Of a stretch of DNA of 35,542 bases, positions 4,087 through 35,430 are shown in pieces. The stretch comes from a virus. Every line of letters starts with the position of its first letter. Position 1 is the stretch's first letter. The translations under genes and the position numbers were made by a program. Under the pieces are notes generated by a model, which ran no database searches, was not told the origin of the DNA, and saw only the letters and a program-made list of their open reading frames with translations. The stretch spans positions 1 through 35,542 of the IMG/VR virus record IMGVR_UViG_3300019927_000007; one strand, 5' to 3'.

Positions 4087-4122
4087 TTTCCTACACCAAT
4101 CGGGTCGCACTTCACCCGAACG

Positions 4123-4160
4123 CCCTTCCCCGGAGTCGAACCGGGGGTCGCCACTAAGGG
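4123..4160 (-). ncRNA. tRNA-like minihelix 1 (acceptor plus T-arm only)
   Basis: On the minus strand, CCCTT (4160-4156) pairs with AAGGG (4127-4123) and is stacked without a gap on the T-stem CCCCGG/CCGGGG (4146-4141 with 4133-4128), giving an 11-bp helix. The loop is TTCGACT, the canonical T-loop. Only nine nucleotides (AGTGGCGAC) replace the D and anticodon arms. It begins five bases after the stop codon of the upstream gene (4166) and ends 36 nt before the next start (4086). No CCA is encoded. A full tRNA is ruled out because no 5' acceptor strand exists at tRNA distance. Confidence 0.75.
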
Positions 4161-4165
4161 TCTAC

Positions 4166-4855
4166 CTACGTCGGAACTTCAGCGGCCCACATCACTCGCG
4201 TCAGGAAATCCATCTCGTTTTTCGTCATTCGGTACGCCTCACCGTCGATCTCTAATGAATGGCGACTCTCATAGTTATCATCGAACTCCACATTGTACGC
4301 CGAGTCACCGGCATCAGGACTGATTACCGAACCTGAAAGCGACCGGCTGGTTGTATGAGGATGACGGAACTCACAATTCCATGTCACCAACAGTTCATCG
4401 TTGAATAGCCATCCGTTGTCAGTTAGTTCAAGGATACCCTCCTCGATGTATCGCGAGAACGGCGGCATTTCTGCAAGGTACCGAGCCACGATCATCCGAA
4501 CTCGGTTATCCATCATATCATCCCGAAGGTCGATTAACGGCGCAACGTAATCATCGTCGTTGCACTCATACACTTCGAGGAGGTTATCAATTAATCGGGG
4601 CTTCACGTCAGGACCGAGGTGAATTGGTTGTGCCCCCTCTATTTCAATCGTGTATTCTGTTGCCTGTTGGTTCGGAATGATAGTCACTTGTGGGTCAGAG
4701 CCAACTTTAACGATCTCGTCGCCCTCCTTCAGAAGCCCCCACAAGTCATGATCGAACAGAAGTCTGTTTTGTCTCGACAACGGAACGCTCTCAACCATTC
4801 CATCATCGTGCTGTACTACTATGTTCGCCGGAGTTCGTCGTTTGACTGTTGGCAT
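4166..4855 (-). CDS. Hypothetical protein, possible rIIB-like partner
   Basis: 229 residues from the ATG at 4855, which overlaps the stop of the GHKL ATPase gene as TAATG; the longer frame starting 18 bases upstream lies inside that gene. The protein has a beta-rich N-terminal half (TPANIVVQHDDGMVESVPLS; DPQVTIIPNQQATEYTIEI) and a C-terminal segment EEGILELTDNGWLFNDELL that loosely recalls the 'dG.llaYK' region of phage rIIB proteins. Its coupling directly behind an rIIA-like gene makes rIIB the natural guess, since rIIA and rIIB are adjacent in T4, but sequence support is weak. Confidence 0.4.
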   Translation of the reverse strand: MPTVKRRTPANIVVQHDDGMVESVPLSRQNRLLFDHDLWGLLKEGDEIVKVGSDPQVTIIPNQQATEYTIEIEGAQPIHLGPDVKPRLIDNLLEVYECNDDDYVAPLIDLRDDMMDNRVRMIVARYLAEMPPFSRYIEEGILELTDNGWLFNDELLVTWNCEFRHPHTTSRSLSGSVISPDAGDSAYNVEFDDNYESRHSLEIDGEAYRMTKNEMDFLTRVMWAAEVPT

Positions 4856-7731
4856 TATTTTTGACCATCCCAACTGTATTGTGATGGGTCAACTCGCTCG
4901 TGAAGCGGTTCTTCGTCACTATCGTCGCAATCTGTGGACTGACACACCGACATGAGAGTACCACGAACTTCGTCCTCATCCATATCGGAGAAGTCAATGT
5001 TAAGATCGTGAAGGGAGAGGAGCAACTGTTTGAGATGTCCCTTGTATCCCTTGTTGTACGACAGGCTGTCGATTATTTTGTACATCTCGGAATCATCGTC
5101 CCAGTTTGGCGTGTCGATAAGTCGCTGGTAATAGGACTCGCTATTTTTCAATCGGTAACTGTTCAAGCCCCAATTAAACCGACCTTGATACTTGAACGCG
5201 AATATATTCTTACGATTAGTGTACGACGATCCAATTGCGTACTTTAATCGGTGGTATGTTTTTCGTTCACACACAGCCCACAGCACATCAGAATTATTAT
5301 CTGAAGTAGTTACTTGATCCTGAAGATCCTCCGTGAAGTACTCCCGCATCGTTTCACGGTCGTCGGTGATAATTTTCTTGCCCTTGATGTCGTCAACCAT
5401 AGCTATGATGGTCTGTCGATCATCATTCTTCAATTCTCGGAATGTCATTCCACCGTCTTCGGTGGCTAACACCGTACTGTATGAGTGTTCCTTGAAGCCT
5501 TCAGGTGTCCACACATTCTCACAGTCGATCAGCGCCTCAAACTCCTCGTTGGTACAAGAAGCGATGGCGGCGTAGTCAGCAAAGAAGTAATTGTCCGAGA
5601 TATTCCTATCAACGGAACGTGGGAACAGAACCAAATCACTTCGTGAGAGAAGTCCCGATCCACCTTTCGAGAATTTTTCTTGTAGCTTCTCGATGGTGTA
5701 TCGACAGTCTATCGAATGACTATCATCAGTACGTATTTTGAGAACGTGTTCAGGTAGTTTATCCGCCTTACCAGAAGAACTTGGTGACGTTCCCTTACTC
5801 AACTTGTTTTTGTCGTTGATCTTGGATGGAATATCCCATTCATCATTCTCGTTATCAGATTCACGGTATGGAACTTCTTTGAGCTTCTTGAAGCCGTACA
5901 GATCACCGTATTTGCTGTACTTACTAACACCACTAACAACGACTACCTCGGAGTTGTCGTGTGTGTTCCAGAGAACTTTGGCGCGATCTTTGAACTTGCC
6001 ACCAGTCGAAGCGGCCATGTAAACGTTCGAGCCACCCGTATCGGCAAGCAGATCACCGAGCTTTTTCTCGGTTCGGCCACTCTTTGTAGATACATTGTAG
6101 CCATCTTGGGGGGCATGGGAGAACTCATTAAAGAGGCCCTGAATCTTCTGGTACACCGGAGGTATATCGTAACTTCCGATCACATCATCTTGAACAGGCT
6201 TGTCATCGGTGTGTTCTTTAATCATATTACACCGATTCTTCCATTGTTTGATGGTTATCTCCTCATCGTAAGTTCGGAACTCATTATCTTTTGACTGAAT
6301 GAACTTGGTAAACCGTTCCAGATTTGTAAACACCCTCCGAGGCCCTTGTTTTCGGAGAACTTTTCGGAACGTCGTCCACTTGTCGGGGTGATCTTGTGGG
6401 GCACTAAGAACGTCTTCCGGGCCTTCGATTTCATCGAGAAAGGACGCCGCCACTTTGAGTTCTTCATCTTTCACAACCTCTTTGATGTGAGTGAAGAACC
6501 GCTTGTTGGCTGTATCTCGCTGAAGCCGGTCACGGTCAGCGGTCGGTTGTGGCAAGGGAACGTCGTCTTCGTGGAGGGAATCGACGTTTTCCTGTTTCAT
6601 GCCACGGTGTGGACCCTTGACGATAAGCCCTTGCTCGTTGTGAATCTGCACCACAACATTCCAGAGTGACCGGATACTAACTCTCGTATTCCGGTCGATG
6701 GGCATACTGACGAGGAAACAATCCGGGCTGTTGTACCCAGTATCCACGTTCGGACCAGCAACAACGGTGTACTCGCCGGGCCGATCAACAACAATCGGCG
6801 GATTGTTGTACATCTCGGCCAGATTTTGACCACCGTATTCCTCCTCAACGATAGTTTCACCGTTCTTGTACTCTTTGTAGAGGAGGGGAACACGGAGTCC
6901 CTGACTGTACTCAGCGATCCAGTCAGAGAACTTGTTCAGTTTGAAACCACCATCATCATTTTCGAGAACCGGAATCTCGAACCGAGTACCCCGGAAGTCG
7001 TCGGGAACGGTGTTCGGGATCTCCTCGACACCGGAGAGATCAGTTAGGAACGCAATTCCATCACGGTCAATGTCCGGTGCGTCGGGCTTTCTCGTTCGAG
7101 TCCAGCCACTTATATCGCCTTCTTGACCGGCGGCGTTCACGAAGGTCAGGGCACCGACACCCATTTTGCCACCGGTATCAGCATCGTAGGAAACGCCGGA
7201 CTTGCCGGTTACGTTGAACGCCTTGTCCAACTCGTGGGCAGTCATACCGATGCCGGGATCTTCGTAAACGAGCTGTCGGTCGTCTCTATACAAGCTCACT
7301 TCGATGGTCGGATCGTAGCCAATACTCCGAGCCGCGTCCATCACTTCATCGAGGGGACGGGGGAGTTCGATAACCCGGCCAGAATCGAGCATTACGTCTC
7401 GCGTTAGCCATTCTGCGCCGTAATCCGGGTGATGGGTCAGAAGGAGCTTTGCCGCCCTGATACACGCCGTTTCAGCGTTTTGATTGTACTCTCGGGGAAG
7501 GGCCTTGTTACTACTGTAGATCAGGTCGGCAAGGTATTCGTGAATCGCGTCTTCAGCGATCTCACGTTCACTCTTACCGGTCGAACCTGTTTCTTTTGCC
7601 AAGGCTCCCTCGTGATTGAGGTCGAGGTCGTCTTTTTCAACCCGAGTAGACGACGACGTGATCTTATCGAAATCTTTCGTCGTCGGAACCGATGCGCCGC
7701 TCTGCTGTCGTTGGGTGTCCTGTTGGGACAT
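4855..7731 (-). CDS. rIIA-like GHKL-family ATPase, 958 aa
   Basis: The N-terminal domain carries the Bergerat (GHKL) ATP-binding fold: N-box ALPREYNQNAETA (residues 78-90, with E81 and N85), G1 box EDPGIGM (157-163), and G2 box GGKMGVGALT (187-196). The preceding 'SSNKALPREYNQNA' closely resembles the N-box of phage rIIA-type proteins. T4 rIIA (about 725 aa) is a membrane-associated protein required against the lambda Rex exclusion system; this protein is longer. The C-terminal two thirds is unrecognised, polar and acidic. Start at the ATG at 7731, 26 nt after tRNA-like minihelix 2. Inference: an early protein that counteracts a host defence or affects lysis timing. Confidence 0.75.
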   Translation of the reverse strand: MSQQDTQRQQSGASVPTTKDFDKITSSSTRVEKDDLDLNHEGALAKETGSTGKSEREIAEDAIHEYLADLIYSSNKALPREYNQNAETACIRAAKLLLTHHPDYGAEWLTRDVMLDSGRVIELPRPLDEVMDAARSIGYDPTIEVSLYRDDRQLVYEDPGIGMTAHELDKAFNVTGKSGVSYDADTGGKMGVGALTFVNAAGQEGDISGWTRTRKPDAPDIDRDGIAFLTDLSGVEEIPNTVPDDFRGTRFEIPVLENDDGGFKLNKFSDWIAEYSQGLRVPLLYKEYKNGETIVEEEYGGQNLAEMYNNPPIVVDRPGEYTVVAGPNVDTGYNSPDCFLVSMPIDRNTRVSIRSLWNVVVQIHNEQGLIVKGPHRGMKQENVDSLHEDDVPLPQPTADRDRLQRDTANKRFFTHIKEVVKDEELKVAASFLDEIEGPEDVLSAPQDHPDKWTTFRKVLRKQGPRRVFTNLERFTKFIQSKDNEFRTYDEEITIKQWKNRCNMIKEHTDDKPVQDDVIGSYDIPPVYQKIQGLFNEFSHAPQDGYNVSTKSGRTEKKLGDLLADTGGSNVYMAASTGGKFKDRAKVLWNTHDNSEVVVVSGVSKYSKYGDLYGFKKLKEVPYRESDNENDEWDIPSKINDKNKLSKGTSPSSSGKADKLPEHVLKIRTDDSHSIDCRYTIEKLQEKFSKGGSGLLSRSDLVLFPRSVDRNISDNYFFADYAAIASCTNEEFEALIDCENVWTPEGFKEHSYSTVLATEDGGMTFRELKNDDRQTIIAMVDDIKGKKIITDDRETMREYFTEDLQDQVTTSDNNSDVLWAVCERKTYHRLKYAIGSSYTNRKNIFAFKYQGRFNWGLNSYRLKNSESYYQRLIDTPNWDDDSEMYKIIDSLSYNKGYKGHLKQLLLSLHDLNIDFSDMDEDEVRGTLMSVCQSTDCDDSDEEPLHERVDPSQYSWDGQK

Positions 7732-7757
7732 AATAGCTTCCCCTCACCGTGGGGATG

Positions 7758-7795
7758 CCGCGCCAAGGAGTCGAACCCTGAAAAACCAGTCGCGG
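7758..7795 (-). ncRNA. tRNA-like minihelix 2
   Basis: CCGCG (7795-7791) pairs with CGCGG (7762-7758). The T-stem CAGGG/CCTTG (7780-7776 with 7768-7764, one G-U pair) caps it with loop TTCGACT. A single unpaired G (7763) lies between the stems on the 3' side. The linker is only ten nucleotides (ACTGGTTTTT), so D and anticodon arms are absent. The element starts two bases after the TAA (7797-7799) of the upstream gene and ends 26 nt before the rIIA-like start. Confidence 0.7.
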
Positions 7796-7796
7796 T

Positions 7797-8135
7797 TTAA
7801 ATCATCTCAGTCTTACCGTTCCGAACACGTTCTCGCAAGGACTCGATCTGCGTTTGAGTCCATCTGTTGGATTTTATCGCCGTCATTTCATCCAACTCAA
7901 CTGGGTACGCTGTTAACACATTCCCGTTCGACACGTCCACCGGAACCCGAAACGTCACACCACAGACCGAGTAGATAATGGCCTTTACATTATCTTCGTC
8001 GTCCTCGGTGCGTTCGCCATGCAAGATGGCATCTGAAATAATTTCCCGCTCGATGCACCGTTGTTTGTTGTCGTAATGTAGTCGTTGTCGAACATGGTCA
8101 CTTAGATCGAATGTCTGTTTCTGTTGGAGGGACAT
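7797..8135 (-). CDS. Small protein, weak DUF4258/RelE-like resemblance
   Basis: 112 residues, ATG at 8135. The order 'L(S)DHVRQRL..., R-E-I-I-S-DAILHGER, ..., VTFRVPVDVSNGNVLTAYPVE' follows the plan of DUF4258/RelE-superfamily small proteins (an N-terminal 'HvxxR' helix, a middle 'Is..v..vi..Ge' helix, then two strands ending 'ivTvy'). I did not find enough identity to call it firmly, and no antitoxin-like neighbour is coupled to it. It follows a 152-nt leader that shares a sequence element with the late-gene leader at 15.4 kb, so it may be separately expressed. It is directly followed by tRNA-like minihelix 2. Confidence 0.45.
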   Translation of the reverse strand: MSLQQKQTFDLSDHVRQRLHYDNKQRCIEREIISDAILHGERTEDDEDNVKAIIYSVCGVTFRVPVDVSNGNVLTAYPVELDEMTAIKSNRWTQTQIESLRERVRNGKTEMI

Positions 8136-8287
8136 CTCATCTACTACTGGTGAACATACTGTTTACTGTGGTTGGTAACGTCTGCGGGTGTCGCCCTTCT
8201 TGATGTTAACAGCACTACAACACAGCACCGCACAACAGAGTACTATTAACAACTACTATGCCAGTAAGGTAGGCCGGGGCACCGACC
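8136..8287 (-). promoter_or_regulatory. Leader/regulatory region with GT-rich repeats and GTTAAC motifs
   Basis: This 152-nt gap has no convincing coding frame. On the minus strand it reads GTTAATAGTA then CTCTGTTGTG, GGTGCTGTGTTG and TGCTGTTAAC, closely parallel to the + strand late-gene leader at 15,424-15,480 (GTTAACAGTA, then ACTCTGCTGTG and TGCTGTGCTGT). Two GTTAAC-like half palindromes (around 8,205 and 8,247) bracket the GT-rich stretch. I see no strong TATA box. The shared element suggests a common regulator or a leader bound by the same protein. Confidence 0.45.
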
Positions 8288-9265
8288 TCAGACTCGCTCC
8301 AATAGTTCCGCGTCGAACATAGATTCGAGCCGTTCAACGCGCCCCTCTAACTCTGCGAGAGCTTGCGCGTCAACTTCCACGGTGTCCCCGGACTCACCAC
8401 CATCCGTTGCTGGTGTCATTTGTTGTTCGTAATCGTTGCTTTTGTCCGTACTCCGCATTTCCTTACCGCGTGCTTTGATGTTCTTGTATCCACTATCTCC
8501 GAGGTGTTTTTGAAGGCCCTTGCGAACCGTATTCTTCGAGCAGTTGATGTCCTCGTCGTTGGCGATCTCTCGATTAGTGCGCTTCGGGTCACGAAGCTTT
8601 GCCAACGTAGACCGTTCTTGCTTGTTCAGGTCACTCAACGGCTTACTTTCGAGGTACTCCTGTGTCGTCGGTGGGTCACTCGGGAAGTCCGGTTCAGTAA
8701 CCTCGGTACTCTCACCTTGTGACTCATCGGAGTCATAGAAGTCCACCGGACTGTAAACGACCTCCTCACCGTCTTCGGTTTCGAGGATCGGAACGAAGAT
8801 CGGATCAACGTCGGACTTGGTATAATCCACGTTGTACTTCTCCTTGGCCTCCTGTTGTGGGATCTTGTGGACACCGACGATGTTGATACCGAAGTGTTCG
8901 CTGGCACCTTCAGTCCACATTTCTTCGGACGGCTCATCGAAGTCCTCTCGGTACTTCCGAAGGCCGTACATATCTAACTCGCCCGTGATCTCCTCGATCA
9001 ACTCCTGCTTTTCGTCGTTGAAGTACCGATAGTCGTCAACGGCACCAGACACTCCGGTATCGGTACCGGACACCGACAGATCGTCGTGTTGGAGGATTTG
9101 CGGCCCGGAACGTCGGTTACAGTCAACAGCGACCCAATACGTCTCATGGATCTGTGACCGTTCATCGAAGTACTGGTTGTCTTGCTCGTTCGTTTCGGTA
9201 CTTTCTTCATCGCTGGTTTCGTTCGTCGGATTTGCGAACATTTGCTGTTTGGGGTTGTCGCTCAT
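8288..9265 (-). CDS. HTH DNA-binding protein with acidic middle and coiled-coil tail
   Basis: 325 residues from the ATG at 9265; a GTG four codons earlier is possible. Residues about 210-265 contain a helix-turn-helix of the response/transposase-like type (LNKQERSTLAKLRDPKRTN, REIANDEDINCSKNTVRKGL): a 'REIAxxxxxSxxTVxxxL' recognition pattern. The C-terminus (ALAELEGRVERLESMFDAEL) is a short leucine-zipper-like coiled coil that could dimerise it. The N-terminal part is acidic and low in complexity, with 'YWVAVDCNRRSGPQIL' as a conserved-looking core. A transcriptional regulator of the viral programme is likely. tRNA-like minihelix 3 lies 51 nt upstream. Confidence 0.7.
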   Translation of the reverse strand: MSDNPKQQMFANPTNETSDEESTETNEQDNQYFDERSQIHETYWVAVDCNRRSGPQILQHDDLSVSGTDTGVSGAVDDYRYFNDEKQELIEEITGELDMYGLRKYREDFDEPSEEMWTEGASEHFGINIVGVHKIPQQEAKEKYNVDYTKSDVDPIFVPILETEDGEEVVYSPVDFYDSDESQGESTEVTEPDFPSDPPTTQEYLESKPLSDLNKQERSTLAKLRDPKRTNREIANDEDINCSKNTVRKGLQKHLGDSGYKNIKARGKEMRSTDKSNDYEQQMTPATDGGESGDTVEVDAQALAELEGRVERLESMFDAELLERV

Positions 9266-9316
9266 TGTTTGTAGCACAATACCTCAACCGTGGTGATAGA
9301 GTCACCGTGCTTCAAG

Positions 9317-9355
9317 GGAGGTGTGGGAATCGAACCCACAGGAACCATTACCTCC
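9317..9355 (-). ncRNA. tRNA-like minihelix 3
   Basis: GGAGGT (9355-9350) pairs with ACCTCC (9322-9317) and stacks directly on T-stem GTGGG/CCCAC (9339-9335 with 9327-9323), an uninterrupted 11-bp helix. The T-loop is TTCGATT. The ten-nucleotide linker AATGGTTCCT leaves no room for D or anticodon arms. It lies 55 nt after the stop of the 46-aa gene and 51 nt before the HTH gene. The spacer upstream on the transcript contains a pyrimidine-rich tract. Confidence 0.75.
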
Positions 9356-9410
9356 TACAAAGCTGGTAACCAACCAACTTTAACGAAAGAGGGGAGGAGA
9401 GAAGGAGCGT

Positions 9411-9551
9411 TTACAGCGCGTTGTTCAGTCGCACCTGCCACGGAGCCGTTCGGTCGGTACCGTACATCTCCATCATTCGTTCTCCGTGGGACATCTCCGC
9501 CTTCACTTTGACATCTTTCGATGCCGTGGGCTTCTTAGTGATCGTAGACAT
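9411..9551 (-). CDS. Hypothetical microprotein, 46 aa
   Basis: The ATG at 9551 overlaps the TAA of the upstream gene (TAATG) and the frame ends with TAA at 9411. The product is basic in its first half (MSTITKKPTASKDVKVKAEM) with a Met-rich SHGERMMEMYG segment. No family recognised. Support is the coupled start and the position between two genes of the same unit. Confidence 0.5.
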   Translation of the reverse strand: MSTITKKPTASKDVKVKAEMSHGERMMEMYGTDRTAPWQVRLNNAL

Positions 9552-9736
9552 TAGGCCGCCACCTCAGGTTCCACAACGCTCTCGATGTTGGTCACCTCAC
9601 TATCATCCGACGTATCGTAGACCGTCGCATCGTCGTCCTGAAGGGCACGTTCTACGAAATACCGGATACTCGTTTCACGTTCGACACCACTTTCGTACTC
9701 AACCCGACAGCTTCGGATCATCTCTTTGTCTTCCAT
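9551..9736 (-). CDS. Hypothetical acidic protein, 61 aa
   Basis: ATG at 9736, only five nucleotides after tRNA-like minihelix 4. The first half looks like a small alpha/beta unit (MIRSCRVEYESGVERETSIRYFVERAL in sense order), and the rest is acidic (DDDATVYDTSDDSEV). If the minihelix is cut at its 3' end, the resulting mRNA would have a 5-nt leader, close to the leaderless mRNAs common in haloarchaea. Function unknown. Confidence 0.6.
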   Translation of the reverse strand: MEDKEMIRSCRVEYESGVERETSIRYFVERALQDDDATVYDTSDDSEVTNIESVVEPEVAA

Positions 9737-9741
9737 CGCAG

Positions 9742-9788
9742 TAACTCGCGGAGAATCGAACTCCGAAAACGGTCACCAGACCGAGTTA
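9742..9788 (-). ncRNA. tRNA-like minihelix 4 (perfect 7+5 bp)
   Basis: The best of the series. TAACTCG (9788-9782) pairs perfectly with CGAGTTA (9748-9742) and stacks on T-stem CGGAG/CTCCG (9765-9761 with 9753-9749) with loop TTCGATT. This is exactly the 12-bp acceptor/T helix of a tRNA. The linker is 16 nt (GTCTGGTGACCGTTTT) and may fold a 3-bp mini-arm (GTC TGGT GAC). The first three bases (TAA) are the stop codon of the upstream 31-aa frame, and the next gene starts five bases after the helix. Confidence 0.8.
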
Positions 9789-9881
9789 ACTTTGTTCTTC
9801 AGAAATCCGCTTCAGCGCCGCGTCGATCACTTTAGGACTTGGTTCCGCCAAACAGACAGCGTTCTTAGGTGTTTTTTTCAT
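9786..9881 (-). CDS. Hypothetical microprotein, 31 aa
   Basis: The ATG at 9879-9881 overlaps the TGA of the upstream gene (ATGA), and the frame ends at TAA 9786-9788, which is also the first triplet of minihelix 4. The product MKKTPKNAVCLAEPSPKVID plus a helical end is basic then amphipathic. No family recognised. The ATGA junction and exact abutment on the minihelix favour a real gene. Confidence 0.5.
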   Translation of the reverse strand: MKKTPKNAVCLAEPSPKVIDAALKRISEEQS

Positions 9882-10213
9882 TTGTAAAGGTGAATGACGC
9901 CTTCGAGAACCGCGTTGTCATAGTGATCTCGGTGCATATACCGAGCCACTTCGTATTTACCGGACGGCCTCGTTCCAACCAGTACCATATCCCACTCTTT
10001 CTGCATCTTCTGGTGGGTATCGTTTTGAGCGATCTCGCTTTCTTCGTCGTAGGTCACGTACAACATTGCGTGACCAAAGCTACTCATTCGGAATAGTGAT
10101 CCTTGTTCAGGAGGAACTGCCGAATAAGCCATCTCTGCAACCTCGGTCGGACTGAATCGTTCGTTTTCTTCGGTGCGACTCGGATCTACCTCTTGGGGAA
10201 ATTTTGCACTCAT
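9878..10213 (-). CDS. Hypothetical protein, 111 aa
   Basis: ATG at 10213, coupled to the upstream gene by an ATGA overlap. The N-terminus is polar, followed by an alpha/beta core (GHAMLYVTYDEESEI; KEWDMVLVGTRPSGKYEVARYM) ending in a beta strand (VLEGVIHLYK). No catalytic motif or known family is visible. Part of the short-gene cluster following the giant RNA. Confidence 0.6.
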   Translation of the reverse strand: MSAKFPQEVDPSRTEENERFSPTEVAEMAYSAVPPEQGSLFRMSSFGHAMLYVTYDEESEIAQNDTHQKMQKEWDMVLVGTRPSGKYEVARYMHRDHYDNAVLEGVIHLYK

Positions 10214-10521
10214 GCTGTGGAAAGGGCTTCAAGAGCTTCTTCGATTGCTTCGTCAATTGATTCCGGTCGAGCGTCTTCGATGTCGGTCACGTCAGGCCCC
10301 GAAAGGAGGGTCATGTGTTGATTTGAGGTCTGACTGTAACCACCCCAATCAGGGAACCGGAAAACATTACCGCCGGAAGTACGGAGGGCGTAAACTGCCC
10401 AACCGTATCCCCAAATTGCCGCTGTTCCATCATCATCTTCTTCGATCTTCATACTGTTCGCCTGACCGCTTGTGCCGCCGGTTTTGAAGTGGCGGGCAAG
10501 GTTTGCGTTGGAGTACGTCAT
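10210..10521 (-). CDS. Hypothetical protein, 103 aa
   Basis: ATG at 10521. It is Tyr/Gly-rich in the middle (AAIWGYGWAVYALRT; FRFPDWGGYSQTSNQH), suggesting a compact beta-rich domain, with an acidic helical tail (DIEDARPESIDEAIEEALEAL). A seven-codon upstream frame overlaps its start, and tRNA-like element 5 ends 51 nt upstream. No family recognised. Confidence 0.6.
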   Translation of the reverse strand: MTYSNANLARHFKTGGTSGQANSMKIEEDDDGTAAIWGYGWAVYALRTSGGNVFRFPDWGGYSQTSNQHMTLLSGPDVTDIEDARPESIDEAIEEALEALSTA

Positions 10522-10541
10522 AGCAATTCCATTTTACACAT
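10518..10541 (-). promoter_or_regulatory. Possible 7-codon leader frame coupled to the 103-aa gene
   Basis: ATG TGT AAA ATG GAA TTG CTA TGA encodes MCKMELL. Its TGA overlaps the ATG of the next gene (ATGA), and a purine-rich TTAGAGGG directly precedes it. It may be a translational-coupling leader that loads ribosomes for the 103-aa gene. Chance is not excluded, as it is only eight codons long. Confidence 0.3.
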
Positions 10542-10572
10542 CCCTCTAACCAACGCGGTTATCATCGGGAAG

Positions 10573-10635
10573 CCTCGGCAAGGAGTCGAACCTTGCTACT
10601 GGCCTTAGAAGATGTAGTCTTCTTGTTCTTCGAGG
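10573..10635 (-). ncRNA. tRNA-like element 5 (with anticodon-like arm, overlaps a CDS end)
   Basis: T-stem GCAAGG/CCTTGC (10596-10591 with 10583-10578) with loop TTCGACT. CCTCG (10635-10631) pairs with CGAGG (10577-10573) and continues the T-stem without a gap, giving 11 bp. The 34-nt linker holds a perfect hairpin AGAAGA-CTACA-TCTTCT (10623-10607), which can also be read as a 5-bp anticodon-like stem with a 7-nt loop ACTACAT. There is no D-arm. The 5' part lies in the end of the 47-aa zinc protein gene (stop 10605-10607). An alternative acceptor (GGCCTT with AAGCC, one bulge) is possible. Confidence 0.55.
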
Positions 10636-10748
10636 GGGTTGTCGTCGCTCATCTCAATTGGGTGCCCACACTTCTCACAAGTGTTGGTCATACTATCACC
10701 TTCGAGAACGTCGTTTGGGGTACCGCAGTTTTGGCAAAATTCTTCCAT
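10605..10748 (-). CDS. Zinc-ribbon microprotein, 47 aa
   Basis: The ATG at 10748 overlaps the upstream TAA (TAATG); TAA stop at 10605-10607. CQNCG (C5, C8) and CEKCGHP (C24, C27) form a textbook four-Cys zinc ribbon with a 15-residue spacer, followed by an acidic tail (SDDNPLEEQEDYIF). Such mini zinc ribbons are widespread in haloarchaea and bind zinc; partner or nucleic-acid binding is unknown. The last codons double as the 5' part of tRNA-like element 5. Confidence 0.8.
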   Translation of the reverse strand: MEEFCQNCGTPNDVLEGDSMTNTCEKCGHPIEMSDDNPLEEQEDYIF

Positions 10749-11062
10749 TAGAGGGCGGCGCTGGCGGTCTGCACTTCTTGTTGTTCATCTTCCGGGGGAA
10801 CGATCTTGAGCATGATACGATCCTCCTCTTTGTGTCGATCATACTGCCACACATCACCGACCATTAATCCCATCTTGTTGACTTTTCTAATGACCGTGAA
10901 TGTCCACCCTTTTCGGGGGACCGACACCCGGAGCATCTTCGGATCGTCACTTGTGAGTCGTGGATTTTCTACCAGAACGCGCTCATAATCGCCATCTGGA
11001 GTGAGTGTTTCAATCTGTCCCAATTCGTGCATCACGTCGATGTAGTTACTAATTCGTGTCAT
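10748..11062 (-). CDS. Hypothetical protein, 104 aa
   Basis: ATG at 11062 (ATGA overlap with the upstream gene) and TAATG junction with the zinc ribbon downstream. The N-terminus looks like a short winged-helix or helical region (MTRISNYIDVMHELGQIETL) followed by beta strands (MLRVSVPRKGWTFTVIRKV; DRIMLKIVPPED). 'ISNYIDVMHELG' could be part of a winged-helix fold, but I cannot assign a family. Confidence 0.6.
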   Translation of the reverse strand: MTRISNYIDVMHELGQIETLTPDGDYERVLVENPRLTSDDPKMLRVSVPRKGWTFTVIRKVNKMGLMVGDVWQYDRHKEEDRIMLKIVPPEDEQQEVQTASAAL

Positions 11063-11361
11063 TTGCTGATTTTCCCTTCTTTGAAGAACTTCCGACCGTA
11101 CCGCATTGGTGCTTTTTGAATCGCCTTACCGAAGGACGTTGCATCTGAAACAGTATCTAATATCGGTGTCTCGAACAGTAATTTGTGCGCGTGACGGTCG
11201 TGATCTCGGGTCACCTTTAGAACTGTCTTGTAGTATATCCCATCGAGATTTTCGATGCGATCTATCCGAAGAAGCAACGGCTTCGAATTATGTTTGTATA
11301 GATGGACGACACTATCTCCGTTTGTATCACGTTCGTACCAATTTTCGTGTTCAAGTTGCAT
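11059..11361 (-). CDS. Hypothetical protein, 100 aa
   Basis: ATG at 11361, coupled by TAATG to the 161-aa gene. The protein is basic for this genome (FGKAIQKAPMRYGRKFFKEG at the C-terminus) with a beta-rich middle (HLYKHNSKPLLLRIDRIENL; YYKTVLKVTRDHD). The basic tail could contact nucleic acid. No family recognised. Confidence 0.6.
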   Translation of the reverse strand: MQLEHENWYERDTNGDSVVHLYKHNSKPLLLRIDRIENLDGIYYKTVLKVTRDHDRHAHKLLFETPILDTVSDATSFGKAIQKAPMRYGRKFFKEGKISK

Positions 11362-11846
11362 TAGAAATTGAACCTGATTTCTTCGTCGGGATTTTCGCTT
11401 CGGTACTCTTGCTCAAGCTGTTGGATGTGGTTTGTGAGCCACTCTCCGGTGTTTCCAACAGGTTCGAAAGCCATGATGCCATCTTCAGCCGCCAAACATG
11501 ACTCCCACGACCACAACGGGTGTCGTGACCAAGCGAACCTATCGCTTGAAAAAGTCCAGTAAATCGTATTTTCGGCTCGTTCCGGTGCATCTTGGCAGAT
11601 GTACTGGAATATTTTCAGACTAACATCCGCGGTGATGTTTCTTTCATTCCATCGTGACTTATCACCTGCCCAAACTCCGGCGTAGAAATAATCGTCGTCA
11701 ACTCGGATGGTGTTCGGTTGTTCGTCAGCCTCGACAAGGTGACCGATAACCTTGCGGCGGCTATTGTCATATACACGGATCTCGACTTCGTTGTGGGCAT
11801 TAACGTAGGCTTCTACGTCGTATCGCCCGTGAACTAACTTACTCAT
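11361..11846 (-). CDS. Hypothetical protein, 161 aa
   Basis: ATG at 11846, after a 59-nt spacer. Rich in aromatic residues, especially Trp (YAGVWAGDKSRWNERN; YWTFSSDRFAWSRHPLWSW), with a beta-strand N-terminus (YDVEAYVNAHNEVEIRVYDN) and a helical tail. The fold is probably compact and beta-rich. No family recognised. Confidence 0.6.
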   Translation of the reverse strand: MSKLVHGRYDVEAYVNAHNEVEIRVYDNSRRKVIGHLVEADEQPNTIRVDDDYFYAGVWAGDKSRWNERNITADVSLKIFQYICQDAPERAENTIYWTFSSDRFAWSRHPLWSWESCLAAEDGIMAFEPVGNTGEWLTNHIQQLEQEYRSENPDEEIRFNF

Positions 11847-11905
11847 TACAGTAAACGCGGTTGCTATTGATAAAACTATCGGACTTGTTCAATGGAGGTG
11901 GTTGC

Positions 11906-12205
11906 TTACAGCTCTTGGAACAAGTTCACCGTCTGTCCACATCTATTGCACACTCTACACAAGACTCTAACACCTTGCCAATCTTGTGCCATCTTGTGGT
12001 GATCTTCGTGGTTACAGTTTTGCACCTTTTCTGCAACTTTGTCCATCGAGTTTTTGGCTAATTCAGGATTCTCTCTCCTAAATCGAGCCATACCGTGATC
12101 TTCTCGAATCCGTGTCTCTTTGTCCCACGGGTGGTCAGGCCATTCCTGAACCTGTGGGCAATCGAACTCGAACTGATGGGCAAAAACGCGGCACACATCG
12201 CACAT
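11906..12205 (-). CDS. Zinc-finger protein, 99 aa
   Basis: The ATG at 12205 overlaps the TAA of the 39-aa gene (TAATG); the longer frame to 12238 would run through that gene. Cys/His pairs lie at the N-terminus (MCDVC, then FAHQFEFDC) and at the C-terminus (CNHEDHHK and CRVCNRCGQ), enough for two zinc sites. The middle is a charged helical segment (TRIREDHGMARFRRENPELA). Function unknown; the Cys pattern suggests a nucleic-acid or protein adaptor. Confidence 0.7.
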   Translation of the reverse strand: MCDVCRVFAHQFEFDCPQVQEWPDHPWDKETRIREDHGMARFRRENPELAKNSMDKVAEKVQNCNHEDHHKMAQDWQGVRVLCRVCNRCGQTVNLFQEL

Positions 12206-12324
12206 TAGTTGTCCTCGTACTCGTCTTCGGGTACCCATTCCTCGGCATCGGGGTTAGTTGCGTCACTAACTGCGTCACGTTGTACGGACTTGGCGTTATT
12301 TTGCCAATTGGACTCATCACTCAT
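12205..12324 (-). CDS. Acidic microprotein, 39 aa
   Basis: ATG at 12324 and TAA at 12205-12207 in a TAATG junction with the next gene. The product (MSDESNWQNNAKSVQRDAVS, then an acidic tail DAEEWVPEDEYEDN) is probably disordered with one helix. No family recognised. Tight coupling on both sides is the main support. Confidence 0.5.
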   Translation of the reverse strand: MSDESNWQNNAKSVQRDAVSDATNPDAEEWVPEDEYEDN

Positions 12325-12325
12325 G

Positions 12326-12427
12326 TTAGAATCCTTTGCTGTTCGGGTGGGAACCGTAGCAATTACAGCACTCTCCAACCTCACCGGCACTTAGGACTGA
12401 ATCGCAGAGGCTACAACGGTCCTCCAT
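12326..12427 (-). CDS. Zinc-ribbon microprotein, 33 aa
   Basis: ATG at 12427 overlaps the previous TGA as TGATG; TAA at 12326-12328. Only 33 residues, but with two Cys pairs (CSLC at 5-8 and CCNC at 20-23), the CxxC...CxxC pattern of a zinc ribbon. One of a run of Cys-rich microproteins directly behind the giant RNA. Confidence 0.65.
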   Translation of the reverse strand: MEDRCSLCDSVLSAGEVGECCNCYGSHPNSKGF

Positions 12428-12567
12428 CAGATCAGGCCCTTCTTTTTGAGGGGATTTTCGCACTCACACGGCAAGCCACCGTCCCATTCGGTACGGTTAC
12501 CGTGGGGACAAGTGATACTTACATCGTCGCCTATCCAACCTTCTGGCAGATATGGTTCGGGATTCAT
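12427..12567 (-). CDS. Small Cys/His-containing protein, 46 aa
   Basis: ATG at 12567 preceded by a purine-rich GGCGGAGAGATCGAAG; TGA at 12427-12429. The segment VSITCPHGNRTEWDGGLPCE plus CENP supplies Cys-Pro-His and two further Cys (CPH...CEC), a likely zinc site; the last residues (PLKKKGLI) are basic. It is the first gene after the giant RNA and tRNA-like element 6, which ends 43 nt upstream. Confidence 0.65.
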   Translation of the reverse strand: MNPEPYLPEGWIGDDVSITCPHGNRTEWDGGLPCECENPLKKKGLI

Positions 12568-12610
12568 CTTCGATCTCTCCGCCCCTCCGGGTGGTTGTCC
12601 GAAGGGAAAT

Positions 12611-12673
12611 GGACGGTGCAGGAATCGAACCTGCGGCTCCACCTGAACGATGAAGCATAGCCATAGAACCGCC
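12611..12673 (-). ncRNA. tRNA-like element 6 at the 3' border of the giant RNA
   Basis: T-stem GCAGG/CCTGC (12634-12630 with 12622-12618) with loop TTCGATT. An acceptor-like stem GGCGGT (12673-12668) pairs with ACCGTCC (12617-12611) leaving one bulged base, and stacks on the T-stem. The 33-nt linker contains GGCT/AGCC (12662-12659 with 12638-12635), an arm in the anticodon position whose large loop contains CAT; there is no D-arm. A degenerate or D-armless tRNA-Met is an alternative reading, but I could not fold a standard cloverleaf. Confidence 0.55.
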
Positions 12674-20234: not shown

Positions 20235-21709
20235 ATACAGACAAACAAACAATACAGGGAGACGATCTTTCTGACCTCAATTTTAACGTTGATATTTCGT
20301 CTCCCGACCCCGAAGCCCTCGCACAAGGATTCAACCAATTTGGTGTAAAAGACACCGAAGATCGTGTTGAGTTTATCTTTGAGGCGATGCAACCGGGGAT
20401 GCGAAACGGCGTCAAGATCACCGAAGATTTCCTTCAAAGGGTTGCCTCCAATTTCGAAGATGGGGCACCTGCACAGATTGACCACGACCGGTCAATGCTG
20501 ATGAACGCAGGGCAGATCGAACGAGTGTGGTTCTCGGACGGTGCCCTTCGTCTCAAAGGATACATTCCCAAAACTGGTGCTGACACGCATCAAGAGTTCG
20601 TTAATCGGTTTACGTTCGATCCTCCGCAGGTTCAAAATGGATCTGTTGGGTTCGGGATGAAATACGAACTTTCAGAAGATGATGATGGGAACCCGATGCT
20701 CGTTGATGGGGATATGCAAGAATTTTCGTTCTTGCCTTTCCCCGGTGGATACGACGAATCTTCTGGTGGTCTAAAAGCGCAGTTCGAAGAAGCGTATCAG
20801 GAGTATCGAGAAGATATGGAGCCTGACCAAGACGAATTGGATACGGTCTATTCCGAATGGTCTTCGATGGTCAACATGGACAACGACCAGATGGAGCGTT
20901 GGGACGAAAATCCTTGCGCTGATGAAATGGTCGATGGCGGTGAGGACACCCGAGACGAGACGTTAATGCTGATGGGTAGTCCGAAGGAAAGTTGGTCGCA
21001 ACAGAATGTTGATATAGCGAATCAGGTTATCGACTTTCTCGCGACGGAAGTTGAAAAAGACGCTGACAATCCAGAAGAAGGCGGCCCCGGCACTTGTCCG
21101 AGCCGATGGGCAGTCAACCTTCTCAATCGGGGTTATAATCCATTTGATGATTTCCCGACTGGGAACCCGCAGTTTGGTGAGTCGGGCACTATTGATGATG
21201 ACGCCTCCAAAGACGACGTAAGTGGGGTCGAGTCCTTTGATGTCCGCCTCGAAACGGAAACACTACACAATTCTACTACAATGACTTTTGAACGAATTGA
21301 TTTTGATGATCTAAGCGACGACCTCCCCGAGGACGTTGCGGAGTTCATTTCTGACGTTCAGGAACAGCACGAGGCCAATGTCGAGTTTATCGAGTCGGTT
21401 ATCGAGGACCGCGACACGGCTGAAGACGAACTTCAGGAGTACAAGCAGGATCTCGCGGAAGACCTTGAAGACCGTGAGGCCGTTCTGTTTGAGGCTGACG
21501 AACTCGTTGAGTTTGAGATGTCCCGCCTTCACAAGCTGGACGCCGACTCCAAGGAGTTCGAGGTTTCTGCTGACGAAGCGGACACCGAGGGTACGGAAGA
21601 CGGTGACTTTGGCTCTAAAGATCGTAAGTCGAAGAATTTCACCGAAGATAAGCCTGACAGCCGAGCAACCGAGGGTCTGGCTGACATGGCTGGAATCTCG
21701 ATTGAGTAA
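20231..21709 (+). CDS. Prohead maturation protease fused to scaffold domain
   Basis: 492 residues. The N-terminal 180 residues match HK97-type (S78-like) prohead proteases: H85 in AQIDHDRS, S138 in NGSVGFGMKY and the strand EFSFLPFPG (164-172). The C-terminal 150 residues form a long acidic coiled coil (DVQEQHEANVEFIESVIEDR; TAEDELQEYKQDLAEDLEDR) as in scaffolding proteins, so the enzyme and scaffold are one polypeptide. A middle segment (about 225-315, with WDENPCADEMVDG and GTCPSRWAVNLLNRGYNPFD) is not explained by either. The protease would cut the scaffold and capsid protein during maturation. Confidence 0.8.
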   Translation: MNTDKQTIQGDDLSDLNFNVDISSPDPEALAQGFNQFGVKDTEDRVEFIFEAMQPGMRNGVKITEDFLQRVASNFEDGAPAQIDHDRSMLMNAGQIERVWFSDGALRLKGYIPKTGADTHQEFVNRFTFDPPQVQNGSVGFGMKYELSEDDDGNPMLVDGDMQEFSFLPFPGGYDESSGGLKAQFEEAYQEYREDMEPDQDELDTVYSEWSSMVNMDNDQMERWDENPCADEMVDGGEDTRDETLMLMGSPKESWSQQNVDIANQVIDFLATEVEKDADNPEEGGPGTCPSRWAVNLLNRGYNPFDDFPTGNPQFGESGTIDDDASKDDVSGVESFDVRLETETLHNSTTMTFERIDFDDLSDDLPEDVAEFISDVQEQHEANVEFIESVIEDRDTAEDELQEYKQDLAEDLEDREAVLFEADELVEFEMSRLHKLDADSKEFEVSADEADTEGTEDGDFGSKDRKSKNFTEDKPDSRATEGLADMAGISIE

Positions 21710-28998: not shown

Positions 28999-31900
28999 TG
29001 ACAGTTCAAATTGACGTAGAACTTAACGAGAAGTGGCGCGACGACATCGGTGAACTCTATTCCGAGTTCAAAGCGATGGACGGCGCGTCGGTTGACTTGG
29101 ATGCTGATGTTTCTCGTGCCTCAAATAAAGTTGGGGCACTTAAAGGTGAAGTTGAAGCTCTTACGTCTGGTCACCACGAAATAGATGTTGACGCAAACAT
29201 CGACCACGACAGTATTCAGGAATCTGTTGATTCTTTGAACGAGCTTGATGTTGACAACGTTGATCTTAACCTTGGTGACCTTGGTGACCTCAACGAATCC
29301 ATCAGCATTACAACTGATATAGACGACGATGATCCAGTACTCAATGCACTCACAAATGACGAAGATTTAGAAACCCAAGGCACAATTCGATGGGATTCTC
29401 GTGGTGGATATGGGCCATCGAGAAGTAGTGGTACGATAAACTGGGATTCTGACGTTAGTGCTACCGAGCTTATTGACGAACTTAAAGCGGCAAAGAATCA
29501 AGCAAAAGCCGCTGGTGCTACAACTATTGATTACGAGGTTCAACCAAAGGATGGCACTTCGTCTCAATTTATTGAATCTGTAAAGAATAACAGCAACGAA
29601 AGTACAAGTCAAACACACTCATTCACAGAATATACGAATTATGAAGCTTATGTTGACCACGGTTCATTCGAGGAAAGTCAAGCAGAACTTGAACGCCTGA
29701 AACGTGGGATGGACCAAAGCGGTCTAACTAAAATCAAAACGAAGGTCTGTGTTGAGCGGTGCGACGATTGGAAAAAGAACCTCAACAATATATACAAGGA
29801 TCTCGATGCCATCGAGGATTGGAACAAACGAAACGGTGACATTGAGATTTCACTTGCTGGCAACCTCGGTGAATTAGAGGACACCATCGACGCTATTGAA
29901 GAAAGTGATCTCGATCTATCGGGTCAAAGTGGCGGTGGTGGTGACACCGAAGTTGAGCGGATGCTTTCAAATGCTCAAAATGACGTTTCGCCGTATGAAG
30001 CATGGAAGCAGAAACATGGCATTGGAACTGAGACTGGTACCAACGAGAAGGGCGACGACGGCCCTACCTCACCCGGTTGGACAAAAGAAGACCGGAAATG
30101 GATGGGAAGCGGCTTTGGTCGCGCTATTTCAACTGAAGCGTCGTCGCAATTGGATCGGTTAGATAACACACTCGATTCACTTGGTATCGAAGGTCAAGTT
30201 GGTGGTGACCAATTTACTCCGAGCGACATTCAGACCACAACTCGGATGGAAGACGCGGCGTTCCAAAGGCAAACTGGTCGCTTCCCGATGGGAGCAGAGC
30301 AGAGAAAAATGGCGAAAGAACTTGCTCAAAGCAAAGCTTTCGCTGATGTCACCCGAGAGTTCGATACAACAAGTGGATATGGTGACGGTGTAACCCGAAG
30401 TACAAAAGATTACAGCGATCACGGTGTCTACAACCCCAACAAGAATCGTGGAATCTACAGCGGACAAAGTGGTGCGATGTGGGCCACCGGAGACGCAATC
30501 GAGAACACACTTGATGGGCAACATGGAACCAACCCATTCACACAACAAGAGCAGGATCTTCTTCGACAGGTTGGTGTCGATATGCCGTCGTCACAGTATT
30601 TCGGATCGGACGATGATTCGGCTATGGCGAACTGGTTTACGTCGATAACCGCACGTCGAACGGGTGGAAATGGGTTTGGGAACTTCGATGCCAACTTAGA
30701 CAGCTTCAAAAGTGGTGGTGGCACATCGGACTGGGGGTCGATCCTTGGGTTCGGTGGGTTACCCGGCTTCGGTGGTGATGGTGACAATGGAAGTGGTGGC
30801 CCGGGTATAAACTCACTCAAGAAATTAATGCCAACGATGGCGAAGTACTGGCAACTGATTGCCCTTCTGTCACCGATGTTGATTACGTTGGCCGCAAACG
30901 CCGCTGGTGTCGCCGCGGCTATGGGGTCTATTGCTGTCGCTGGTGGAGCTGTGATCGGCCTCGGATTGCTCGGCTTCGGAAGTAACTTAGCCGATTCAAT
31001 GAAGGAGGCCCAACAGCGGATTAAGGAGTTCAAAAAGGAACTATTCGCAACGTTCAAGCCGACATTCCAACAGTTCTCGCCGTTTACTGAATCGTTCATG
31101 GCAACGGCTCCCATTCGAGTGGAACCGCTTGCACAGTCGATGAAAGGACTGACGGAGTTCGTTCCGACGTTCAACGACGCCTTCGACGGATTGGTTTCCT
31201 ACGCGGCTGAGTTTATTGATGTCGTCGTACAGTTAGAACCAATCCTTTCACAGCTTGGGATGAGGTTCGGAAGTATTCTTGGTGACCTTGCTATTCGTGC
31301 GTTCACATGGTTAACGCAAGAAGCCTACAAGAACCAAGATGTGATGATTGATGTTGGAAAGGCTATTTTCAGCTTAATCAAAGTTCTATACCAGTTCGCA
31401 CACGTCTTGGCGTACTTGACCGCGATCTTCTCGCCGGTCATTAATGCCTTTGCGTGGATTGCATCGTTCATCTCCGAGCGGTGGGTTGCCGCGATGCTCG
31501 CAGGAACGATGGCAGTCTATGGAATTGCTACAGCGGTCGGGGTGTTATCCGGGGCCTTCAGTACGCTACTGTCAACGAGTTTGGCCTCGATGGGCGCGTC
31601 CATTGCGTCGTTCGCCGCGACTGCTATCACGTCGTTCCTTGCGGCGGCTGAGGCGCTTGCTGTGCTGATTGCTGGTCAAGCTACGTTATTGACCATGACC
31701 GGTGCAGGGATCGCTCTCGCCGCCGCTGGCGTGGCCGCAGGGTATGCCGCGTACCAAGCCATTGCTCCGAAAGGTCAAGCATCGAGTCTTGGTGGTGGAG
31801 GCGGAGGTTCACCCGGACTCGGAGGTGGCGGAGCAGGTATGGCCAACGGCGGTGGTATGGGTGCTGGTGCCGGTGGTGGCGGTGGTTCAAAGACTGTTAT

Positions 31901-34215: not shown

Positions 34216-35430
34216 ATGGCTACTGAAAAAACTAAAAATCTTGAATGGGATAAGCCAGTTTTTCCCTCTAACAATCTCGATACAGAATTAAGTACGCTAT
34301 TCGATCAGATTGATACGGATGTTAGTAAATTTGGCCTAACAGTTAGCGATAGTACTACAAAAATAGTAGACGTTCCTGATGGGCTTAATTTTGGAGACGA
34401 TCTCGTTGTATTCGATGATGGCGACGGATCGGTTACAATCAATTCAACGGCGATTAGTCCCAACGAGAAAGGCGCGGCAGATGGGGTTGCCGAACTTGAT
34501 TCATCTGCTAAGATCCCAACGGCACAATTACCGAGTATTGCGGTTACTGAAACTGACGTTGTTGCAGATCAAACTGAACGACTTGCACTCGATGCTGAAA
34601 CGGGAGATATTGCAGTCCAACAAGATGAAAACCAATCGTATATTCTCAAAGGCTCCGATCCAAGCCTCGATTCCGAATGGGCAATTCTTGAAACACCGAC
34701 AGCAGACGTAGCCAGCGTTTTTGGCCGTACTGGTCAAATAACTGCAAGCTCTGGTGATTATACACATAGTCAAATTGCGAACGTATCCAGTAACGATCAT
34801 CATAATAGATATACAGATACAGAAGCAGAAAGTGCGGCTCCAATACAATCTGTAAATGGCAAAACTGGAAACGTAACAATTAACGGATTTAGTGGATCGC
34901 ACTTGGATCTGACAGATATTCAGTCCGATGCACACCATTCTCGATATACAGACTCTGAGGCGGCAACAGCGGCCCCGATACAGTCAGTAAACGGAAAGAC
35001 TGGGAATGTCACCATTGATACCTCAAGCGGCTCTCACACCGATCTCACGGACGTTACAGCGAACGATCACCACGAACCGTTCGAACCGGTTGATTATACG
35101 CCAGAAACAGATACACACAACAGATATACGGATTCAGAAGCGGTTTCTGCAATTGAAACAACACCTCTTAGCTCAAATCTTGATTTAGGCGACAACAATC
35201 TTAACAGAGTGAGTTCAATTGATAGTACAAACGATAGTGACGCATACATTCGAACCAAAGGTGGCGGATCTGACCTTTGGAGATTCTACGACGAAGCCAA
35301 CGGTCAAAATATAGCCGAGTTTCGAGAAGGGGGCGACGTTGCGATTCCGAACGGTGGCGTTGTAATGGGCAATTTCAAAGTTGAGCAGAACAGTTCGACC
35401 AACAGCCTTGATTTCAATTACACAGGATGA
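34216..35430 (+). CDS. Tail fibre / adhesin with HH-repeat units
   Basis: 404 residues starting directly after the spike stop. Contains at least three repeat units of the type NDHHNRYTD-x-EA-xx-AAPIQSV followed by NGKTGNVTI (near residues 195, 240 and 300). The His pairs with Asp/Thr are typical of haloviral fibre repeats and could bind metal ions that stiffen a trimeric fibre. The C-terminal part (SDAYIRTKGGGSDLWRFYDE) resembles the 'wrf..d..g.' end of phage fibres. It would bind the host surface. Confidence 0.75.
   Translation: MATEKTKNLEWDKPVFPSNNLDTELSTLFDQIDTDVSKFGLTVSDSTTKIVDVPDGLNFGDDLVVFDDGDGSVTINSTAISPNEKGAADGVAELDSSAKIPTAQLPSIAVTETDVVADQTERLALDAETGDIAVQQDENQSYILKGSDPSLDSEWAILETPTADVASVFGRTGQITASSGDYTHSQIANVSSNDHHNRYTDTEAESAAPIQSVNGKTGNVTINGFSGSHLDLTDIQSDAHHSRYTDSEAATAAPIQSVNGKTGNVTIDTSSGSHTDLTDVTANDHHEPFEPVDYTPETDTHNRYTDSEAVSAIETTPLSSNLDLGDNNLNRVSSIDSTNDSDAYIRTKGGGSDLWRFYDEANGQNIAEFREGGDVAIPNGGVVMGNFKVEQNSSTNSLDFNYTG

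Follow-up and report, generated by a model that had tools for sequence, protein, structure and literature searches.

The left part of this haloviral genome raises the question of what tRNA-like arms are doing between the protein-coding genes of a tightly packed operon. The window, by which we mean the whole stretch of DNA analysed, is a 35,542-bp IMG/VR virus record from a virus of salt-loving archaea, with terminase, portal and capsid genes on the plus strand in the right part; its left part has a minus-strand operon of early type, whose products include a helicase and an HSP90-like protein. The closest named viruses are Hafunaviridae: the terminase is ∼52% identical to that of the HRTV-7/HSTV-2 group, the HSP90-like protein has its best virus homologues in HRTV-2, HRTV-7 and HSTV-2 (∼37% identity), and the helicase is ∼55% identical to that of the HF1/HF2 group. 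The closest contig by the HSP90-like protein is IMGVR_UViG_3300019926_000010 (67%; hereafter L007) and the closest by terminase is IMGVR_UViG_3300019927_000014 (85%), and a search of genome contigs with the HSP90-like protein found no relative. Little is understood of how haloviruses and haloarchaea cut their long transcripts into mRNAs; long primary RNAs alongside shorter mature ones are on record for HF2 and phiH1, without a known signal. We propose, with a probability of roughly three in four, that the elements E1–E5 (possibly also E6) are t-elements by which host tRNase Z cuts the polycistronic early mRNA.

The initial annotation had noticed six minus-strand T-arms in this region, and all six are there, each with five of five T-stem pairs and the loop TTCGAYT, with no such arm on the plus strand, against a mean of 0.025 expected by first-order Markov resampling; GGTTCGANTCC occurs five times on the minus strand of the window and not once on the plus strand. 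E1 to E4 are clear acceptor/T minihelices, E5 is partial and E6 is doubtful, and the acceptor-like stems of 5–7 bp that had been described stand for the first four, with linkers of 10, 10, 10 and 16 nt by the present pairing (9, 10, 10 and 16 nt in the earlier reading). E1 (4120–4162; CCCTT AGTGGCGACC CCCGG-TTCGACT-CCGGG g AAGGG) lies downstream of an ORF of 235 aa (4166–4873; this and the other genes below are minus-strand entries of the ORF list), matches our covariance model R2 with 49.7 bits (E 3.6e-12) and forms the minihelix in the minimum free energy (MFE) fold; its homologues are L007 8684–8727 and HF2 2904–2947. E2 (7755–7797; CCGCG ACTGGTTTTT CAGGG-TTCGACT-CCTTG g CGCGG; 48.5 bits) separates an ORF of 112 aa (7797–8135) from the gene of the HSP90-like protein (4855–7731), and has a competing fold in the MFE structure; its syntenic copy (L007 5055–5103) has the acceptor GTCAC/GTGAC instead of CCGCG/CGCGG, with pairing kept. 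E3 (9315–9356; GGAGGT AATGGTTCCT GTGGG-TTCGATT-CCCAC ACCTCC; 33.9 bits) precedes an ORF of 329 aa (8288–9277), forms the minihelix in the MFE fold and has its counterpart at the same junction in L007 (3041–3084).

E4 (9740–9789; TAACTCG GTCTGGTGACCGTTTT CGGAG-TTCGATT-CTCCG CGAGTTA) has a perfect acceptor of 7 bp and a longer linker, and scores 16.7 bits (E 0.022); it too forms the minihelix in the MFE fold, and its copy in L007 (2405–2450) carries the compensatory change TAACTCA/TGAGTTA. E5 (10570–10613; 22.3 bits, E 4.7e-4) is weaker: the T-arm CAAGG-TTCGACT-CCTTG is extended to 6 bp, and the acceptor is bulged or long-range (CCTCG/CGAGG); it lies upstream of an ORF at 10210–10521 and is syntenic with L007 1471–1509. 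The weakest is E6 (12609–12660), which lies 5′ to the first early ORF and in which R2 matches only the T-arm GCAGG-TTCGATT-CCTGC (12618–12634, 15.9 bits), and the 6-bp acceptor (GGCGGT/ACCGTC, 33-nt linker) is unconvincing and absent from the MFE fold. The stability of the minihelices is ordinary for their composition (z-scores 0.0 to −1.1 for E1–E4), and hence the case is comparative and not energetic. In the plus-strand structural-gene half of the window (13000–35542) there are no elements, and the late region of HF2 is likewise free of them.

The claim that the stems covary while the loop stays constant is borne out in a set of 20 diverse elements, in which the covariation score was 0.909 compared with 0.212 ± 0.031 after shuffling, 95.0% of the pair cells of the two helices were paired compared with 59.9%, and double changes numbered 80 compared with 24.5; sliding the partner by one column destroyed the signal. 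The D and anticodon arms are missing, as had been stated, but the linker is not a mere deletion scar, because a conserved GG is kept in it. Among 43 elements (one of which, in a VOLN27B coding region, is probably false) the linker measures 9–12 nt in 33 and nearly always contains GG 3–5 nt past the acceptor, the first GG being at position 4 in 29 of the 43; by family, 8 of 12 have GG at linker positions 4–5, where shuffled linkers give 1.2. From tRNA structure we infer that the linker may be a D-loop remnant (G18 G19) whose stem has been deleted and which could still dock on the T-loop. Elements with linkers of 26–40 nt (L048 24347, L045 28988, L047 29239 and L007 3257) may stand midway between a full tRNA and a minihelix, and at L007 2941–2975 there is a T-loop hairpin in which CCTCG/CGAGG is joined straight to the T-stem with no linker.

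Full tRNAs with introns had been named as one finding that would speak against mimicry. ARAGORN found no tRNA in the window, and Rfam gave no match there at gathering cut-offs, nothing meaningful at E ≤ 10 and no RF00005; a D-stem and an anticodon arm are absent, so the elements do not form the cloverleaf of a functional tRNA, and hidden full or intron-containing tRNAs were rejected on these negative results.

A second possible objection, absence from relatives, also fell away. In L007, whose compared early proteins are ∼46–76% identical, elements stand at the E1–E5 junctions with altered stems. Two elements at fixed early sites are found in the Haloferacalesviruses HF2, Hardygib1, HRTV-5, HRTV-8, HJTV-2, VOLN27B, HSTV-4 and Serpecor1, the Mincapviruses have two or three each, and further elements occur in many IMG/VR contigs with 39–85% terminase identity. 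In HF2 the two minihelices (2904 and 4374) carry no annotation and fill gaps between annotated genes (2875–2979 and 4346–4446). HFTV1, from another family, has one t-element (35056–35099) between gp62 and PCNA; published RNA-seq exists for this virus (PMC12542753), in whose genome a single putative tRNA is reported by the authors. An HSTV-1 match at 29687 within an annotated CDS was left out of the count, and an HF2 match at 20867 lies within tRNA-Tyr. R2 found no match in phiH1, phiCh1, HVTV-1 or BJ1, though the RNAs of phiH1 are reported to be processed.

The decisive comparison is with the hosts. R2 was built from viral and proviral elements only (it replaced an earlier model, R1, that was too narrow to cover all elements), and beyond the viral relatives, over which the initial annotation had suggested such a search, it recovered the t-elements ahead of host 5S rRNA, full length and with up to 49.9 bits. 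Of 59 Halobacteria genomes 40 had matches, as against none of the 69 other genomes of the phylum sample. In all nine cases checked with Rfam the host element ends exactly one nt before the 5S rRNA, and in a wider look it ends within one nt of the 5S start. In H. volcanii the t-element is directly upstream of the 5S rRNA, and the tRNase Z cut makes the 5S 5′ end (PMC4326828, PMC3296008); t-elements have been employed in living Haloferax cells as substrates for RNase P and tRNase Z (PMC4326828, PMC3296008, PMC4946936). The viral elements fit the same structural model, sharing with the haloarchaeal 5S t-elements that R2 matches the acceptor-like stem, the short linker with GG, the T-arm TTCGAYT and an equal length. 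They differ in that they, like some host elements, lie between protein-coding genes, several per operon and with varied stems, and often precede a hairpin where the 5S t-element precedes 5S rRNA. A model made from viral elements recognises host 5S t-elements and places their predicted cut at the 5S 5′ end; together with retention at the same junctions in relatives and the covariation, this comparison makes tRNA-mimic punctuation of the viral mRNA the best-supported reading.

However, the system is not only viral, as it had been described, because host operons carry such elements too. Among 55 host matches in one set, 30 abut 5S rRNA and 25 do not, by a motif-based call, and proviral origin is possible for a few of the 25. 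L170 has four elements (9372, 11842, 14508 and 15893) in a single operon that encodes DUF1102, LamG and beta-helix proteins, L179 has two (10409 and 13474) among camelysin-like genes, and single elements are present in L172 (10133) and L175 (9681); they precede DUF1102/camelysin-like surface-protein genes, several per operon, and most share the stems CCCAC/GTGGG and GGCGG/CCGCC. This link to surface proteins is based on Pfam scans of a few operons and on recurring MKRR-type starts judged by eye. Around the non-5S host elements there were almost no Hafunavirus homologues (six in L178, one each in L170 and L175), and we therefore rejected the idea that these elements simply belong to hafunavirus proviruses. 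Holzle et al. in 2012 reportedly described further tRNA-like elements in H. volcanii, of which the tested examples were said to be uncut in vitro. On balance it seems rather probable that mRNA punctuation by a redeployed 5S t-element is common to Halobacteria and their tailed viruses, with many redeployments between protein-coding genes, in surface-protein operons of the hosts and early operons of the viruses, where tRNase Z would set both mRNA ends and the 5′ hairpin would be ready-made.

We infer the following course of events. Each t-element, in which an acceptor-like stem and a T-arm are joined by a presumed D-loop remnant with GG and neither D-stem nor anticodon arm is left, would fold in the early mRNA as a tRNA-like elbow recognised by host tRNase Z, which would cleave ∼2 nt beyond the acceptor, just as ahead of 5S rRNA. 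The upstream mRNA would thereby obtain a stable tRNA-like 3′ end and keep its own stop codon, and the downstream mRNA would obtain a new 5′ end, usually beginning with a hairpin, near its start codon; stability and translation rate could then differ from segment to segment. With the element-to-5S spacing as ruler, the cuts are predicted just past 4120, 7755, 9315, 9740 and 10570 on the minus strand, within 1–2 nt of the 3′ sides proposed earlier. The E1 cut would fall between 4120 and 4119, exactly where a predicted hairpin starts (UCGGGU..ACCCGA, 4100–4119); the E2 cut (7755/7754) would leave the hairpin CCCC(ACGGUGA)GGGG (7740–7754) at the 5′ end of the HSP90-like mRNA, and downstream of the E3 cut (9315/9314) folding gives GGUGA(CUCUA)UCACC (9293–9307). 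The E4 cut (9740/9739), near which there is no such hairpin, would leave a 3-nt leader ahead of the ATG at 9736 of the next ORF (9551–9736). Over 34 viral elements, 23 have a hairpin of at least 5 bp starting at most 4 nt from the predicted cut, compared with a mean of 5.2 and a maximum of 11 in 200 shuffles. In HF2, where long transcripts were detected by RT-PCR and Northern bands were mostly 1–2.5 kb, the authors suggested processing (PMC8707807).

The position of stop codons bears on a variant of this reading, in which RNase P and tRNase Z both cut and an RNA of ∼45 nt is excised at each junction. Engineered t-elements flanking crRNA in Haloferax (PMC4326828, PMC4946936), which are likewise tRNA-like and serve to free an RNA from within a longer one but are man-made, are reported to be cut by both enzymes (PMC4326828). 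That the viral elements sit right after stop codons is broadly right, yet in E4 and E5 the stop (TAA) is inside the element; the stop of the upstream ORF lies within the acceptor or linker in E4 as well as in HRTV-7 14424, L007 5055, L107 16022 and L110 15010. A 5′ cut by RNase P would remove these stops and yield non-stop mRNA, which favours a cut by tRNase Z alone and makes the RNase P part of the earlier proposal doubtful; we regard double cutting as rather unlikely.

Somewhat less probable still is that the elements are uncut and act as structured RNA, stabilising upstream 3′ ends, blocking exonucleases or helping ribosomes to start downstream. tRNA-like structures in other viruses can have effects of this sort, and the stable helices with a second hairpin close to start codons would suit such a role. 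The published primer-extension 5′ end in HF2, T-4384, is the first G of the conserved GG of the second element (4374–4416); it differs from the predicted end at 4417 and was read in the publication as a promoter start. Because it lies inside the element, some HF2 RNA there is uncut or initiates within the element, a point against the main reading and for this one; the end stems either from a promoter that overlaps the element or from a stop of reverse transcriptase. On the other side, an uncut structure does not predict that anatomy, length and the conserved GG would be shared with the host 5S t-element, a tRNase Z substrate.

It is very improbable that the elements are functionless remnants, either of decayed tRNA genes or of attachment sites, even though related viruses carry genuine tRNAs along with a partial tRNA-Arg and an attP tRNA fragment (PMC7230728, PMC8707807). 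Decay explains neither the compensatory changes with syntenic retention nor a truncated anatomy common to host 5S t-elements. The attP fragments lie apart from the elements, have the loop TTCAAAT and gave no acceptor in our scan. No integrase was found among the 20 window ORFs scanned, and the six elements all differ in sequence. The tRNA-like sequences of the HF1 group (partial tRNA-Arg, tRNA-Pro-like and attP tRNA-Thr) belong to the same virus family but are in other places and represent decayed tRNA or an integration site; their authors call for further study (PMC7230728, PMC8707807). A function at the DNA level, including att, was judged unlikely because the stems covary between copies and the elements follow the coding strand. 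A chance B-box-like sequence is practically negligible, given the resampling count and the covariation.

Punctuation of the proposed kind has parallels in mitochondrial tRNA punctuation and plant mitochondrial t-elements, in which tRNA-shaped signals are likewise used by tRNA enzymes to cut polycistronic RNA; but animal mitochondria, another lineage, use whole functional tRNAs, and the viral elements between genes are truncated. In the literature searched, which is a part of all papers, we found no t-element punctuation of viral or host mRNAs, and although the kind of element is known from 5S rRNA, its use as viral and host mRNA punctuation appears to be new. If the proposal is true, there would be a processing signal recognisable by a covariance model together with a candidate enzyme, nucleotide-exact predictions in laboratory viruses (HF2, and HFTV1 at 35099/35100), a role for tRNase Z as an mRNA-processing enzyme in archaea, and a minimal, naturally tested substrate with a tRNA elbow. 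Another device for cutting RNA between genes occurs in this virus group, namely a type II hammerhead ribozyme, already annotated and confirmed by an Rfam match in HF2, which lies in the gap just before the helicase gene in HF2 (L040, 10292–10359), Hardygib1 (L044, 9837–9902) and Serpecor1 (L050, 39366–39433).
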